This document shows, piece after piece, positions 18,913 through 25,259 of a stretch of DNA of 64,000 nucleotides (position 1 is its first letter; every line of letters begins with the position of its first letter). The notes under the pieces are model-generated. The model did no database searches. It was not told the DNA's origin and worked only from the letters and a program-made list of their open reading frames with translations. The stretch is from contig NZ_CP029488.1 in assembly GCF_003177035.1 (NCBI RefSeq), forward strand, positions 2,790,001-2,854,000, given 5' to 3'. The DNA comes from Salinisphaera sp. LB1. Lineage in GTDB: Bacteria > Pseudomonadota > Gammaproteobacteria > Nevskiales > Salinisphaeraceae. The position numbers and the translations under genes were made by a program.

Positions 18913-19920
18913 TCAGTCCAGGACTTGAACGGCCCCGGGGGCGAGCGCCGGTCGGGCGCTGCCCACGGTATTGCGCAGCGGTGCGCCGAAGATCGGTGAC
19001 TCAATCTCGAACACGTCGCCGGCGCGGGTGGAAATATTGTCGGCAAATGACAGCGTGGCGGTGCCGAAGAAATGCACGTGCACATCACCCGCGCCGAGAA
19101 ATTGTCGATACTTGAAGTGGTGGTACTCGAGGTTTTCGAGGCTGTGGCACATATGCGCCTCGCCCGAGAGGAAGGGTTTTTCCCACAGTACCGCGCCGTC
19201 GCGCCGGATGCGGCTCATGCCTTCCACCGACTGCGGCAGTTCACCGGTCAGCAGGATCGGGCCAAAGCTGCAATAGCGCAGCTTGGAATGCGCCAGATAG
19301 AGATAGTTCTCGCGTTCGGTGACGTGGTCCGAGGTTTCATTGCCGAGCGCATAGCCGACCCGCCATGGGGTGCCGTCATCGGCCACCACGTACAACCCGG
19401 CGATCTCCGGCTCCTCGCCCAGATCCTTGCCGAAATCCGGCGCCGGAATCTCGCCGCCCGGGCGGGCGACGATCCGGCCGTCGCCCTTGTAGAACCACTC
19501 CGGCTGTACGCCGGGCTGCCCCGGCGCCGGGCGGCCGCCTTCGAGCCCCCAGTTGAACACCTTCATCGAGTCGGTGAGCTTGTCCGGATCGGGCTGGGCC
19601 TGGCCGGCCTGGTGCATGGCGTTGCGCGTATCGGCGCTGCCGGTATGCGTCAGCCCGGTGCCGGTGATCAGGCAATGCGCCGGATCGTCATGATCCAGCG
19701 GCGGCAGCACGCGGCCGGCCGCCAGTAACGCCTCCAGGCTGTCCAGGCCATCGGCCATGCCGCGGGCCTCGGCTTCGGCGGCCAGACCGTGGCCGGCGGC
19801 GATCGCCGCCAGTGCGAGTTCGCGTACGCTGGCGGTCTCGGCGATCGTGCTGACGCGATCGGCATCCACCACGCCCACACGGCGCTGGCCGGAAACGGTT
19901 TCGTATTGAATCAACTGCAT
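18913..19920 (-). CDS. AraD1/GguC-family protein (FAH superfamily)
   Basis: A 335-residue protein beginning MQLIQYETVSGQRRVGVV, the typical start of the GguC/AraD1 family. It belongs to the fumarylacetoacetate hydrolase superfamily; GNETSDHVTERENYLYLAH and FGPILLTGELP are visible. GguC sits beside chvE-gguAB sugar-uptake genes in Agrobacterium. AraD1-type proteins are assigned to the 2-keto-3-deoxy-L-arabonate step of non-phosphorylative arabinose or galactose catabolism. That is a likely role here too, which would duplicate the FAH half of the fused enzyme upstream. It follows that gene by 17 bp. Confidence 0.8.
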   Translation of the reverse strand: MQLIQYETVSGQRRVGVVDADRVSTIAETASVRELALAAIAAGHGLAAEAEARGMADGLDSLEALLAAGRVLPPLDHDDPAHCLITGTGLTHTGSADTRNAMHQAGQAQPDPDKLTDSMKVFNWGLEGGRPAPGQPGVQPEWFYKGDGRIVARPGGEIPAPDFGKDLGEEPEIAGLYVVADDGTPWRVGYALGNETSDHVTERENYLYLAHSKLRYCSFGPILLTGELPQSVEGMSRIRRDGAVLWEKPFLSGEAHMCHSLENLEYHHFKYRQFLGAGDVHVHFFGTATLSFADNISTRAGDVFEIESPIFGAPLRNTVGSARPALAPGAVQVLD

Positions 19921-19937: not shown

Positions 19938-22712
19938 CTACAGGCCGGCGGTGGTCATATCGCCGTTGACCAGGCGCCGGATGCCCAGCGGATTGCCATC
20001 GGCGAGGGCTTTCGGCAGGACTGCGGCGGGTGCATTCTGGAAACACACCGCACGCAGATAGCGATTGATCGCCAGCGTGCCCACCGACGTGCTGTGGAAA
20101 TCGGTGGTCGCCGGGTACGGTCCGCCGTGCACCATGGCATCGTTGACCGCCACGCCGGTCGGGAAGCCGTTGAACAACACCCGGCCGGCGCGCCGCGACA
20201 GGGCCGTGACGAGTGGCTGGTGCCGGGCGATCTCGGCGTCGTCGCCGGTCACCGTCGCCGTCAGCTGGCCGTTGATCGCCCGTGCGGCGGCCTCGAGCTC
20301 ATCGGCGCTGTCCAACTCGACCACCACCGTGCTCGGGCCGAACACCTCTTCCATCAACGGCTGGGCGTCGTCGAACAACACCGACTTGTCGGCCATGAAC
20401 AGCCGCGCCGCCGCCTGGTTCGATGCGGCGGAGCTGGCCACGACTTCCCGTACGCCGTTCAGGCCCTTGAGCCGTTCCACGCCGTGCTGGTAGTTGTCCA
20501 GCAGGCCGTGGTTCAGCATCACCTGGCCCGGCTTGTTCTTGAGCGCTTCGCCGAGGGTTTCGATGAAGGCCGTCATCGCGGGCGACTTCACCCCGATGAT
20601 CACCCCGGGCCCGGTACAGAACTGGCCGGCCCCGAGACAGACCGAGCCGGCCAGACCCTCGGCGAGTTCGTTGCCGCGGGCCGCGATCGCTTCCGGCAGC
20701 ATGAACATCGGGTTCACGCTCGACATTTCGGCATAGACCGGAATCGGCTCCTCACGCTGCGAGGCCAGATCGAACAGGGCCCGACCGCCGGTCTTGGAGC
20801 CCGTGAAGCCGACTGCCTTGATTGCCGGTTCCTGTACCAACTGCGCGCCGACCATGCCGCCGAAGATCATATTGAAAGTGCCGGCCGGCATGCCGGATTT
20901 TTTCACCGCCGCCTCGATGGCGTTGCCCACCATCTCCGAGGTGACCATATGCCCCGGATGGGCCTTGACCACCACCGGGCAGCCGGCGGCGAAGGCCGAG
21001 GCGGTATCGCCGCCGGCGACCGAGAAGGCGAACGGGAAATTGGAGGCGCCGAACACCGCCACCGGGCCGAGCGCCTGCTGCATCTGGCGCAGATCCGGCG
21101 CCGCGTCGGTGGCGGTATCGATGCGCACGCCGAGATAATCACCGCGGCGCAGGACTTTCGCGAACAGGCGCAACTGGCCGGTGGTGCGGCCGACTTCGCC
21201 GGTCAGGCGTTTCTCGGGCAGGGCGGTCTCGCGCATGGCTTCACGAATGACCGTCTCGCCGAGGGCCTCGATCTCGTCGGCACAGGCTTCGAGAAACGCC
21301 GCGCGGGTTTCCGGATCGGTGGTGGCGAAGGTATCGAAGGCGTCGTGCGCGGCTTCGGCAGCGGCGCTGACTTCCTCGGGCGTCGCTTCGAAGAAGTCCT
21401 GCTTGTAGGGGGTGTTGTCCTCGGCCGATTTGCTCGCAAGCGTATCCTGGCCGGCCGCCACGCGGGTGCCGCCGATGAATTGCTGGCCGGTGATTTCGGG
21501 CATGGATGACTCCTGATTGAAAGCGTTGTCGAGCGATGGCGACGCGGTCTGACGACCGCGTGCAAGATGTTCGAACAGACGCCGTGCGCCGAAGGTCCAA
21601 GGCGGGATCGCATCGCTGCGATTCACCCGATTGACCAGCGCGCCGAGCGTCGGCGTGGCAATGGTTACGCGATCGCCGATGTGATGGGTAAAGCCTTGCC
21701 CCTCGCCGTCGCGGTCGAGGGTGGGCGAGAACATCGTGCCGAGATAGAGCACGAAGCCGTCCGGATACTGGTGATGCGAACCATGCGCCTGCGAGACCAG
21801 ATCCAGCGGGTCGCGGCTGATCTCGCGCATGTCGGAGGCGTCGTCGAGGCGAAAGCCGTCGTCGGCGCCCTCGATGACCAGCCGCACGCGTGCGGCGCGG
21901 ACGTCGTCGATATCGAAATGCTCGTCGAACAGGCGAATGAACGGGCCGAGCGATGCCGAGCCGTTGTTGTCCTTGGCCTTGGACAGCAGCAGGGCACTGC
22001 GGCCCTCCAGATCGCGCAGGTTGACGTCGTTGCCGAGCGTCGCACCCCGGGTCCGGCCGGTGGAATCCACCGCCAGCACGATCTCCGGCTCGGGATTGTT
22101 CCAGGCCGAGGACGGATGCAGACCGACCTCGGCGCCGAAACCCACCGCCGCCATTGGCTGGCATTTGGAAAACACCTCGGCGTCCGGACCGATGCCGACT
22201 TCGAGATACTGCGACCAGGCGTTGCGTTCGATCAACGCCTTCTTCAGTTCCATGGCGGCTTCGGAGCCGGGCACGATCTGCGACAGATCCTCGCCGATCA
22301 GTTCGTGCAGCTGGGTACGGACCTCGGCGGCCTTGGCCGGATCGCCGCCGGCCTGTTCCTCGATCACGCGCTCGAGCAGACTGACGGCAAAGGTCACGCC
22401 GCAGGCCTTGACCGCCGCCAGGTCCACCGGCGCGAGCAGACGCTCGCCGGAATCGGTTTCCAGCGACTGGGCGAGCCAGTCGCGTACGTTGCCGAGTTTC
22501 TCGCCGGGCGCCTGGACCGCGATATCCAGCAGGTCGTCGCGATCGAGCAGGTCGGTCATGGTCGGCCCGTGCGCGCTGATATCGACGACCTCGCCGCCAC
22601 GCACGGCGATCAGCGCGGGGCCATCGATCGGCGCCGTACGCCACACGCGACCGAGCAATACGGCGCGGTCGAGATCTTCGGGAAGACAATCGGACAATTC
22701 GATCAAATCCAT
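19938..22712 (-). CDS. Fused 2-keto-3-deoxypentonate dehydratase / alpha-ketoglutarate semialdehyde dehydrogenase
   Basis: One uninterrupted 924-codon frame holds two enzymes usually encoded separately. Residues ~1-385 match XylX-type FAH proteins (GVTFAVSLLERVIEE, WNNPEPEIVLAVDSTG, GNDVNLRDLEGRSALLLSKA), which dehydrate 2-keto-3-deoxypentonate to alpha-ketoglutarate semialdehyde. A 17-residue linker follows. Residues 404-924 are an aldehyde dehydrogenase of the KGSADH class with catalytic Glu662 (VYAEM) and Cys699 (GQFCTGPG), which oxidises that semialdehyde to 2-oxoglutarate. ATG 21503 inside the frame has CAGGAG 7 bp upstream, so separate internal initiation is possible. Start taken at ATG 22712, 1 bp after the SDR stop; ATG 22745 is an alternative. 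Confidence 0.88.
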   Translation of the reverse strand: MDLIELSDCLPEDLDRAVLLGRVWRTAPIDGPALIAVRGGEVVDISAHGPTMTDLLDRDDLLDIAVQAPGEKLGNVRDWLAQSLETDSGERLLAPVDLAAVKACGVTFAVSLLERVIEEQAGGDPAKAAEVRTQLHELIGEDLSQIVPGSEAAMELKKALIERNAWSQYLEVGIGPDAEVFSKCQPMAAVGFGAEVGLHPSSAWNNPEPEIVLAVDSTGRTRGATLGNDVNLRDLEGRSALLLSKAKDNNGSASLGPFIRLFDEHFDIDDVRAARVRLVIEGADDGFRLDDASDMREISRDPLDLVSQAHGSHHQYPDGFVLYLGTMFSPTLDRDGEGQGFTHHIGDRVTIATPTLGALVNRVNRSDAIPPWTFGARRLFEHLARGRQTASPSLDNAFNQESSMPEITGQQFIGGTRVAAGQDTLASKSAEDNTPYKQDFFEATPEEVSAAAEAAHDAFDTFATTDPETRAAFLEACADEIEALGETVIREAMRETALPEKRLTGEVGRTTGQLRLFAKVLRRGDYLGVRIDTATDAAPDLRQMQQALGPVAVFGASNFPFAFSVAGGDTASAFAAGCPVVVKAHPGHMVTSEMVGNAIEAAVKKSGMPAGTFNMIFGGMVGAQLVQEPAIKAVGFTGSKTGGRALFDLASQREEPIPVYAEMSSVNPMFMLPEAIAARGNELAEGLAGSVCLGAGQFCTGPGVIIGVKSPAMTAFIETLGEALKNKPGQVMLNHGLLDNYQHGVERLKGLNGVREVVASSAASNQAAARLFMADKSVLFDDAQPLMEEVFGPSTVVVELDSADELEAAARAINGQLTATVTGDDAEIARHQPLVTALSRRAGRVLFNGFPTGVAVNDAMVHGGPYPATTDFHSTSVGTLAINRYLRAVCFQNAPAAVLPKALADGNPLGIRRLVNGDMTTAGL

Positions 22713-22713
22713 A

Positions 22714-23484
22714 TCAACCCCAGCCGGCGTCAATGAAATATTCATGGGCCGTGCAACCGGCGCTGTCGTCGGCGGCGAGAAACAGCACCGTGGGCGCTAC
22801 GTGTTCGGGCAGCAGTCGTTGCTTGAGGCATTGATTGGCCTGGATGCGCGCCTCATCCTCGGGCGTGATCCACTTATCGAGCTGGCGCTCGGTGATGATC
22901 GCGCCGGGGATGATGGTGTTGACCCGGATATTCGATTCGCCGAGATCGCGCGCCATGCCGCGGGTCAGACCATGGATGGCCGCCTTGGCGGTCGTATAAC
23001 CCGGCATGCCGCCGAGCGCGACCTTCCAGCTGATCGACCCGAAGTTGATGATCGAGCCGCCGCCGGCCTCGGCCATGCCGGGGGCGGCGGCCTGAATGGC
23101 GAAGAACTGCGGCCGCAGGTTGATCGCCATGCGCTCGTCCCAGTAGTCGGCCGTGACCGACTGCCAATCGTGGCGGTCGTCGCTGGCGGCGTTGTTGACC
23201 AGCACCCGAATGGCGCCGTGGCGAGCCTCGATGTCGTGAATCGTGGCCTGCAGCTTGTCGACGTCGCGGATATCGCAGGGCGTGAACGACACCGGGTGTG
23301 CGTTCGATTCCGCCTGGAGGCGGGTCACCAGGGCCTGGCTGGCGGCCTCGTCGATATCGACGAAATGCACGTTCGCCTTCTGGCGGGCCAGGGCGGACAC
23401 CAGTTCGGCCCCGATGCCGCTGCCGCCGCCAGTGACGAATGCCGTCCGGCCCTCGAGACTGGGATAGATCGCGGATTGACTCAT
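22714..23484 (-). CDS. XylB-like sugar 1-dehydrogenase (SDR family)
   Basis: A 256-residue short-chain dehydrogenase. The NAD-binding TGGGSGIG is at residues ~18-25, NNAA at 97-100, the serine region GSISW at 149-153, and Tyr163-x3-Lys167. The start AIYPSLEG and the end HEYFIDAGWG match my memory of Caulobacter XylB, the D-xylose 1-dehydrogenase of the Weimberg pathway. It would oxidise D-xylose, or L-arabinose, to the lactone. It is a second, unrelated sugar dehydrogenase beside the Gfo/Idh/MocA one. It lies 10 bp after the dehydratase gene and 1 bp before the fused gene. Confidence 0.87.
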   Translation of the reverse strand: MSQSAIYPSLEGRTAFVTGGGSGIGAELVSALARQKANVHFVDIDEAASQALVTRLQAESNAHPVSFTPCDIRDVDKLQATIHDIEARHGAIRVLVNNAASDDRHDWQSVTADYWDERMAINLRPQFFAIQAAAPGMAEAGGGSIINFGSISWKVALGGMPGYTTAKAAIHGLTRGMARDLGESNIRVNTIIPGAIITERQLDKWITPEDEARIQANQCLKQRLLPEHVAPTVLFLAADDSAGCTAHEYFIDAGWG

Positions 23485-23494
23485 GGCCGACCGA

Positions 23495-25228
<1,734 letters not shown>

Positions 25229-25259
25229 CATCTAACTCCTGTAGCAGACAACTAATGTC

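Follow-up and report, generated by a model that had tools for sequence, protein, structure and literature searches.

The closest described relatives of the two enzymes considered here are separate proteins. PMC6336799 describes the separate FAH/MhpD-superfamily proteins C785_RS13680 and C785_RS13710, which convert D-/L-2-keto-3-deoxypentonate (KDP) to alpha-KGSA, and names a KDP-specific glutamate, Glu182 in C785_RS13680. Separate FAH dehydratases of this XylX / C785_RS13680 type are similar to the dehydratase half reported below in superfamily, full length and pathway neighbours, and also in a glutamate at the place where the structure 2q18 has one. They stop at their C-terminus, whereas the dehydratase half reported here runs on into a KGSADH.

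For the second enzyme, the closest types are the separate ALDHs of the 3v4c (NADP+) and 1eyy type, which are alike in full-length homology, in the active-site Cys and Glu and in the position of the start Met. In routes for pentoses and hexarates, ALDHs of this type fill the role of KGSADH. Unlike these separate enzymes, the KGSADH in this study makes up the C-terminal part of a longer chain, and two of the three species with the fusion also have a free twin of it at another genomic locus.

PutA and 10-formyltetrahydrofolate dehydrogenase likewise consist of an N-terminal enzyme and a C-terminal ALDH (902 aa in 7rlu, 924 aa here), and by sequence both domains lie in one frame in our case as well. 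PutA passes its intermediate on without release, and 10-formyltetrahydrofolate dehydrogenase has a carrier domain. However, these proteins have another partner family and belong to another pathway, and neither a tunnel nor a carrier domain is in evidence here. A FAH-KGSADH fusion was not found in print among the titles and opening parts of abstracts listed, and the words fusion, fused and channel are absent from the available part of PMC9795676.

The fused reading frame and its gene cluster

The window, i.e. the whole 64-kb stretch of DNA analysed, possesses a minus-strand frame of 924 codons, which starts with the ATG at 22712 and whose stop codon ends at 19938 (Table 1). An alternative in-frame ATG is present upstream, at 22745, and would give a product of 935 aa. 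The initial annotation described this frame as a complete FAH dehydratase joined to a complete KGSADH, which agrees with the full-length PDB matches of both halves and with the Pfam search, where both domains were above their cut-offs (PF00171 with 141.4 bits, cut-off 23; PF01557 barely, with 24.4 bits, cut-off 23.9). The joint, previously given as about 17 residues, was confirmed with a length of 18, as residue 385 is the last one with homology to FAH proteins and the KGSADH begins with the Met at 404.

Table 1. Coordinates of the fused gene, its parts and the neighbouring genes in the window.
Feature	Positions	Strand	Basis
Fused ORF, 924 aa, FAH-type dehydratase (probably of 2-keto-3-deoxypentonate) + KGSADH	19938..22712	-	ORF reading, Pfam
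Dehydratase half, residues 1-385	21558..22712	-	PDB 9kkt and 2q18 matches, alignment A1
Linker, residues 386-403, 18 residues	21504..21557	-	Codon alignment with unfused G014
Codon 399 (AAT) in place of G014 TAA stop	21516..21518	-	Codon alignment
CAGGAG, Shine-Dalgarno-like, read as Gln-Glu	21510..21515	-	Anti-SD duplex
Internal ATG, residue 404, start codon position of separate KGSADH genes	21501..21503	-	Alignment
KGSADH half, residues 404-924 plus stop	19938..21503	-	PDB 3v4c and 1eyy matches
GguC/AraD1 family protein	18913..19920	-	NF040903, 512.9 bits, cut-off 340
SDR ORF, D-xylose 1-dehydrogenase-like	22714..23670	-	NF053674, 363.6 bits, below cut-off 400
IlvD/Edd-type pentonate dehydratase	23495..25231	-	NF009559 (PRK13016, L-arabinonate dehydratase), 888.6 bits, cut-off 882

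The dehydratase half is a full-length member of the FAH family, with 9kkt as the best PDB match (E 8.5e-120, over residues 6-384); the 2-keto-3-deoxy-D-arabinonate dehydratase 2q18 also matches (E 5.1e-14). Its putative catalytic Glu179 aligns with a glutamate of the KDP dehydratase 2q18 and is a glutamate in all 17 FAH rows of the alignment. Matched through 2q18, Glu179 is probably the counterpart of the KDP-specific Glu182 of C785_RS13680.

The KGSADH half is a full-length ALDH (3v4c, E 2.5e-136; 1eyy, E 1.2e-118). Cys699 and Glu662 are at the conserved ALDH active-site positions and are kept in 17 out of 17 ALDH rows. The cut-offs of the NCBIfam KGSADH equivalogs were missed (NF052305, 90.6 of 750 bits; NF042993, 77 of 770 bits), and we take these two models to describe other KGSADH types. 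The initial view that both enzymes would be consecutive in one pathway is supported by the family assignments and by the catalytic residues in place.

The fused gene belongs to a cluster on one strand, encoding ArfA, the IlvD/Edd dehydratase, the SDR, the fusion and GguC/AraD1, and the SDR stop codon ends 1 nt ahead of the ATG of the fused gene. ArfA was assigned as arabinosylfuranosidase (NF051901, 856.9 bits, cut-off 625). Further members, assigned by family, are a gluconokinase-type kinase, a SMP-30 lactonase and a Gfo/Idh oxidoreductase, and ORF reading past GguC revealed an epimerase and parts of a sugar ABC transporter. GguC is presumably an L-KDP dehydratase. The gene content suggests a combined route from D-xylose and L-arabinose to 2-oxoglutarate, in which two KDP dehydratases (the fused FAH half and GguC) would be present with one KGSADH. 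The tRNA scan of the window found none.

Distribution and origin of the fusion

The family search covered 17 genomes, 14 of them of Salinisphaera. The FAH-KGSADH pair was found in three of the 14, and in each of these the frame runs through. Fusions in relatives, which the initial annotation had proposed to look for, are carried by two further Salinisphaera genomes. Salinisphaera sp. GH4 (G002, a MAG; L038) possesses the fused ORF as a whole, with 923 aa and 81% identity, and in S. hydrothermalis C41B8 (G006; L039) it is 93% identical over residues 1-656 and open up to the contig end inside KGSADH. The assembly of S. hydrothermalis breaks inside the fused KGSADH (L039/L011 on C21; L139 on C61), perhaps because of a similar second copy.

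The linkers have 18, 17 and 19 codons in the window species, strain GH4 and S. hydrothermalis, respectively, with strongly divergent sequences. A linker this long stays open in 57-68% of shuffles; openness by itself is unsurprising, and the strong evidence comes from the linker being open in three genomes. The dN/dS was low in both halves. That of the FAH half was 0.046 between the window species and S. hydrothermalis and 0.111 between the window species and strain GH4, and that of the KGSADH half between species was 0.10-0.13. In strain GH4 the pentonate dehydratase (IlvD) upstream of the fused gene is a fragment with stops (L142, 7282-7737), and no SDR match was detected in the 19 kb read around the locus. 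The pathway may therefore be decaying in this strain, though neither the fused gene nor GguC is damaged.

An unfused arrangement is present in G014, a genome of another genus of the same family, where genes for IlvD, SDR, FAH, KGSADH and GguC occur in identical order, with FAH and KGSADH as two genes in the same frame. The joint is in the same register (TAA GTG GAG TAC ACC ATG in G014; AAT CAG GAG TCA TCC ATG in the window), which places the stop at the codon aligned to codon 399 of the window. The unfused state is probably the older one, because of its spread in other taxa. Most simply, the fusion would have arisen inside the Salinisphaeraceae by loss of the TAA between adjacent same-frame genes, in agreement with the upstream stop loss proposed initially, and either a substitution or a small indel could have caused it. 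The linker would then consist of the former dehydratase tail and the translated old spacer, with codons 400-403 as the spacer with the Shine-Dalgarno sequence. As read from the sequence, the fusion is real and lineage-restricted, it joins two known enzymes of a known pathway, and its origin is legible. As a gene fusion the case is a clean one: the arrangement before fusion, the stop codon that disappeared and the ribosome site taken into the frame are each still recognisable.

Searches beyond the genus did not detect further fusions, neither at class level (15 of 369 genomes matching at E 1e-60, window genome included, best 2 candidates per genome) nor at phylum level (117 of 398 genomes at E 1e-100, window genome included, best 2 each, among the matches listed). 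The same was true in the order of G446 (37 of 244 genomes matching at E 1e-130, best 3 candidates per genome). One further genome search considered the best 8 candidates per genome among the matches listed, and another listing covered 80 of 463 relatives. Among plasmids, 1104 records matched (40 of the 1104 listed), and the best three one-piece matches are annotated as two genes. On the plasmid of Rhizobium sp. RCAM05350 (L138), the match to a FAH-KGSADH pair falls into four pieces, and this pair is unannotated and possibly broken. As far as seen, the fusion is confined to one genus, and a more distant one could be missed.

Fourteen high-ranking or long-frame candidates were checked for a stop codon, and all of them possess one 1-9 codons past the end of the FAH match. 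These are the suspected fusions G568/L147, G1017/L169, G809/L160, G711/L161, G446/L163, G607/L164, G591/L165 and G752/L166, the plasmid candidates H1-H3 and H11 (L135-L138), and those of P. domus (L040) and Vreelandella stevensii (L112). Candidate G560 (41%) was rejected for one TGA, as judged from its listing alone, and the long ALDH frames L162 and L167 have no FAH match above the thresholds.

A FAH gene followed by an ALDH as separate ORFs was found in 23 rows, corresponding to 22 distinct places (L010 is the same as L141). At 14 loci (L042, L043, L046, L048 and ten more), in genomes of two Pseudomonas, several Burkholderia, Paraburkholderia and Ralstonia, the neighbouring ALDH is only 25-31% like the KGSADH described here, which suggests that different ALDH families may serve the KGSADH step.

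Proposed function and the internal start site

We consider it likely that the fused gene encodes a bifunctional enzyme of non-phosphorylative pentose degradation, born by loss of the TAA. The N-terminal FAH half would dehydrate KDP to 2-oxoglutarate semialdehyde, and the C-terminal ALDH half would oxidise this semialdehyde with NAD(P)+ to 2-oxoglutarate. Both halves would be loosely tethered, independent modules, in which the fusion provides 1:1 stoichiometry and nearness and no tunnel, and the KGSADH half would also take the aldehyde made by the neighbouring GguC. The open frame in three genomes, the unfused same-frame genes of a relative, the catalytic residues and the cluster context are observed; the substrates, the activity and the tethering without channelling are what we infer. 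If active, the protein would catalyse the final two steps towards 2-oxoglutarate in one natural chain, with a use in the engineering of Weimberg-type pathways.

Alternatively, the gene could have two products, the full fusion and a free KGSADH started at the ATG at 21503, which would co-assemble and take the aldehyde from GguC. This is a genuine possibility, although not the one we favour. The Shine-Dalgarno-like CAGGAG reported in the initial annotation is indeed present ahead of this ATG, with a gap of 6 nt (TCATCC) instead of 7. In the window species this site is predicted to pair with the anti-SD at -6.9 kcal/mol, and the value is equal in S. hydrothermalis. Six other gene starts in the cluster span -3.1 to -9.5 kcal/mol (IlvD at -6.9, GguC at -6.6), so that the internal site lies within their range. 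For comparison, the pairing is -5.9 kcal/mol at the separate KGSADH of G014, -7.9 and -8.2 kcal/mol at the two free copies, and -5.4 kcal/mol at the first ATG of the fused gene itself. Among 115 internal in-frame ATGs of nine cluster CDSs, only three others match or beat this site in pairing (four out of 115, this site included), and GGAG or AGGA at -13 to -5 occurs at two, again including this one. The Gln-Glu of the Shine-Dalgarno codons and the Met persist in all three fusions amid an otherwise variable linker, and GguC would need a KGSADH too.

However, the pairing is weak in strain GH4 (-2.4 kcal/mol), the one species in which a separate free KGSADH copy was not detected at E 1e-60, and the window species and S. 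hydrothermalis already have a free KGSADH gene. Moreover, the conservation of Gln-Glu is thin, with three sequences. The free KGSADH from the internal start proposed initially is thus plausible, and chiefly so for the two of the three fusions with a good Shine-Dalgarno sequence, those of the window species and S. hydrothermalis; the sequence of the third is weak. The word fossil, given to this ribosome site in the same annotation, is doubtful because the site is intact in these two species. The cell may end up with mainly two separate proteins.

Returning to the bifunctional enzyme as the preferred reading, both KGSADH genes occur together with probable producers of alpha-KGSA. The fused one is joined to a probable KDP dehydratase and lies beside GguC, and the free twin occurs with KdgD.

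The free KGSADH copy, tethering and channelling

The free KGSADH gene of the window genome (G000:C1:526700-528277; L002) differs from the fused half at 18 positions in 1566 nt, i.e. it is 98.9% identical. The likeness is limited to the CDS and the ribosome site, while the flanks, including the linker, differ. Encoded at the twin locus are a KdgD of the DHDPS family (408.7 bits, cut-off 373.95), a GntR regulator, a TRAP solute-binding protein and one member each of the enolase family and the NAD-dependent epimerase family; a gene for uroporphyrinogen decarboxylase comes next. The product of KdgD is the same aldehyde, alpha-KGSA. The locus is probably an oxidative uronate locus, in which the epimerase-family protein, with no NCBIfam cut-off reached (best 137.5 of 400), would be the uronate dehydrogenase. 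S. hydrothermalis possesses the same twin locus with synteny on both sides. KdgD (E 1e-40) matched in the two species with the free copy, and no match was found in G002, G014 and G015.

Within a genome, the dS between the fused and the free copy was 0.03 for the window species and, for the two parts in S. hydrothermalis, 0.25 and 0.16, whereas between the two species it was 0.53 for the free copies and 0.54-0.55 for the fused copies. Among the sites splitting the four genes two-and-two, 172 group them by genome, one by orthology and one the other way. The simplest reading of this pattern would be gene conversion after one old duplication, with independent insertions into the same slot as an alternative. 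The more unusual aspect of the case is this concerted evolution with a free KGSADH gene. Tentatively, and with less conviction than for two products of the gene, it could be extended to one gene in two forms, the fusion and a free KGSADH, in which repeated gene conversion with the free KGSADH of the uronate pathway homogenises the 3' half of the gene, so that the domain is kept interchangeable, tethered or free, in two converging pathways.

The initial annotation suggested that the fused enzyme could hand over a reactive aldehyde, and the stronger form of this idea is channelling, in which the fusion holds the active sites face to face and the semialdehyde is passed on without release. The reactions are consecutive with a reactive aldehyde in between, and ALDHs with an N-terminal partner do exist, PutA (5kf6) and 10-formyltetrahydrofolate dehydrogenase (7rlu) being among the matches of the ALDH half. 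Nonetheless, the linker is variable, and GguC as a second dehydratase would presumably release the same aldehyde anyway. The fused KGSADH half stays nearly identical to the free copy, which leaves little room for docking and makes a specialised contact with the dehydratase doubtful. The AlphaFold2 model is poor (mean pLDDT 68.4, pTM 0.51; 231 of the 924 residues with pLDDT below 50, including 366-404 and active-site stretches) and says nothing on geometry or linker. The hand-over is thus unsupported, and channelling is improbable. For loose tethering, the preferred reading, the near-identical free half in the same genome offers a direct test of whether joining helps by tethering alone.

A sequencing or assembly artefact, i.e. 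an overlooked stop codon or a false join with the second KGSADH copy, which as a 98.9% repeat can mislead assembly, was rejected as having almost no likelihood, since the fusion occurs in three genomes with differing linkers, GguC follows in all three and in the unfused G014, and the linker and the downstream flank lie outside the similarity to the second copy. The window genome also possesses a third KGSADH-like gene (G000:C1:2159556-2161133; L003), 47% identical to the fused half.
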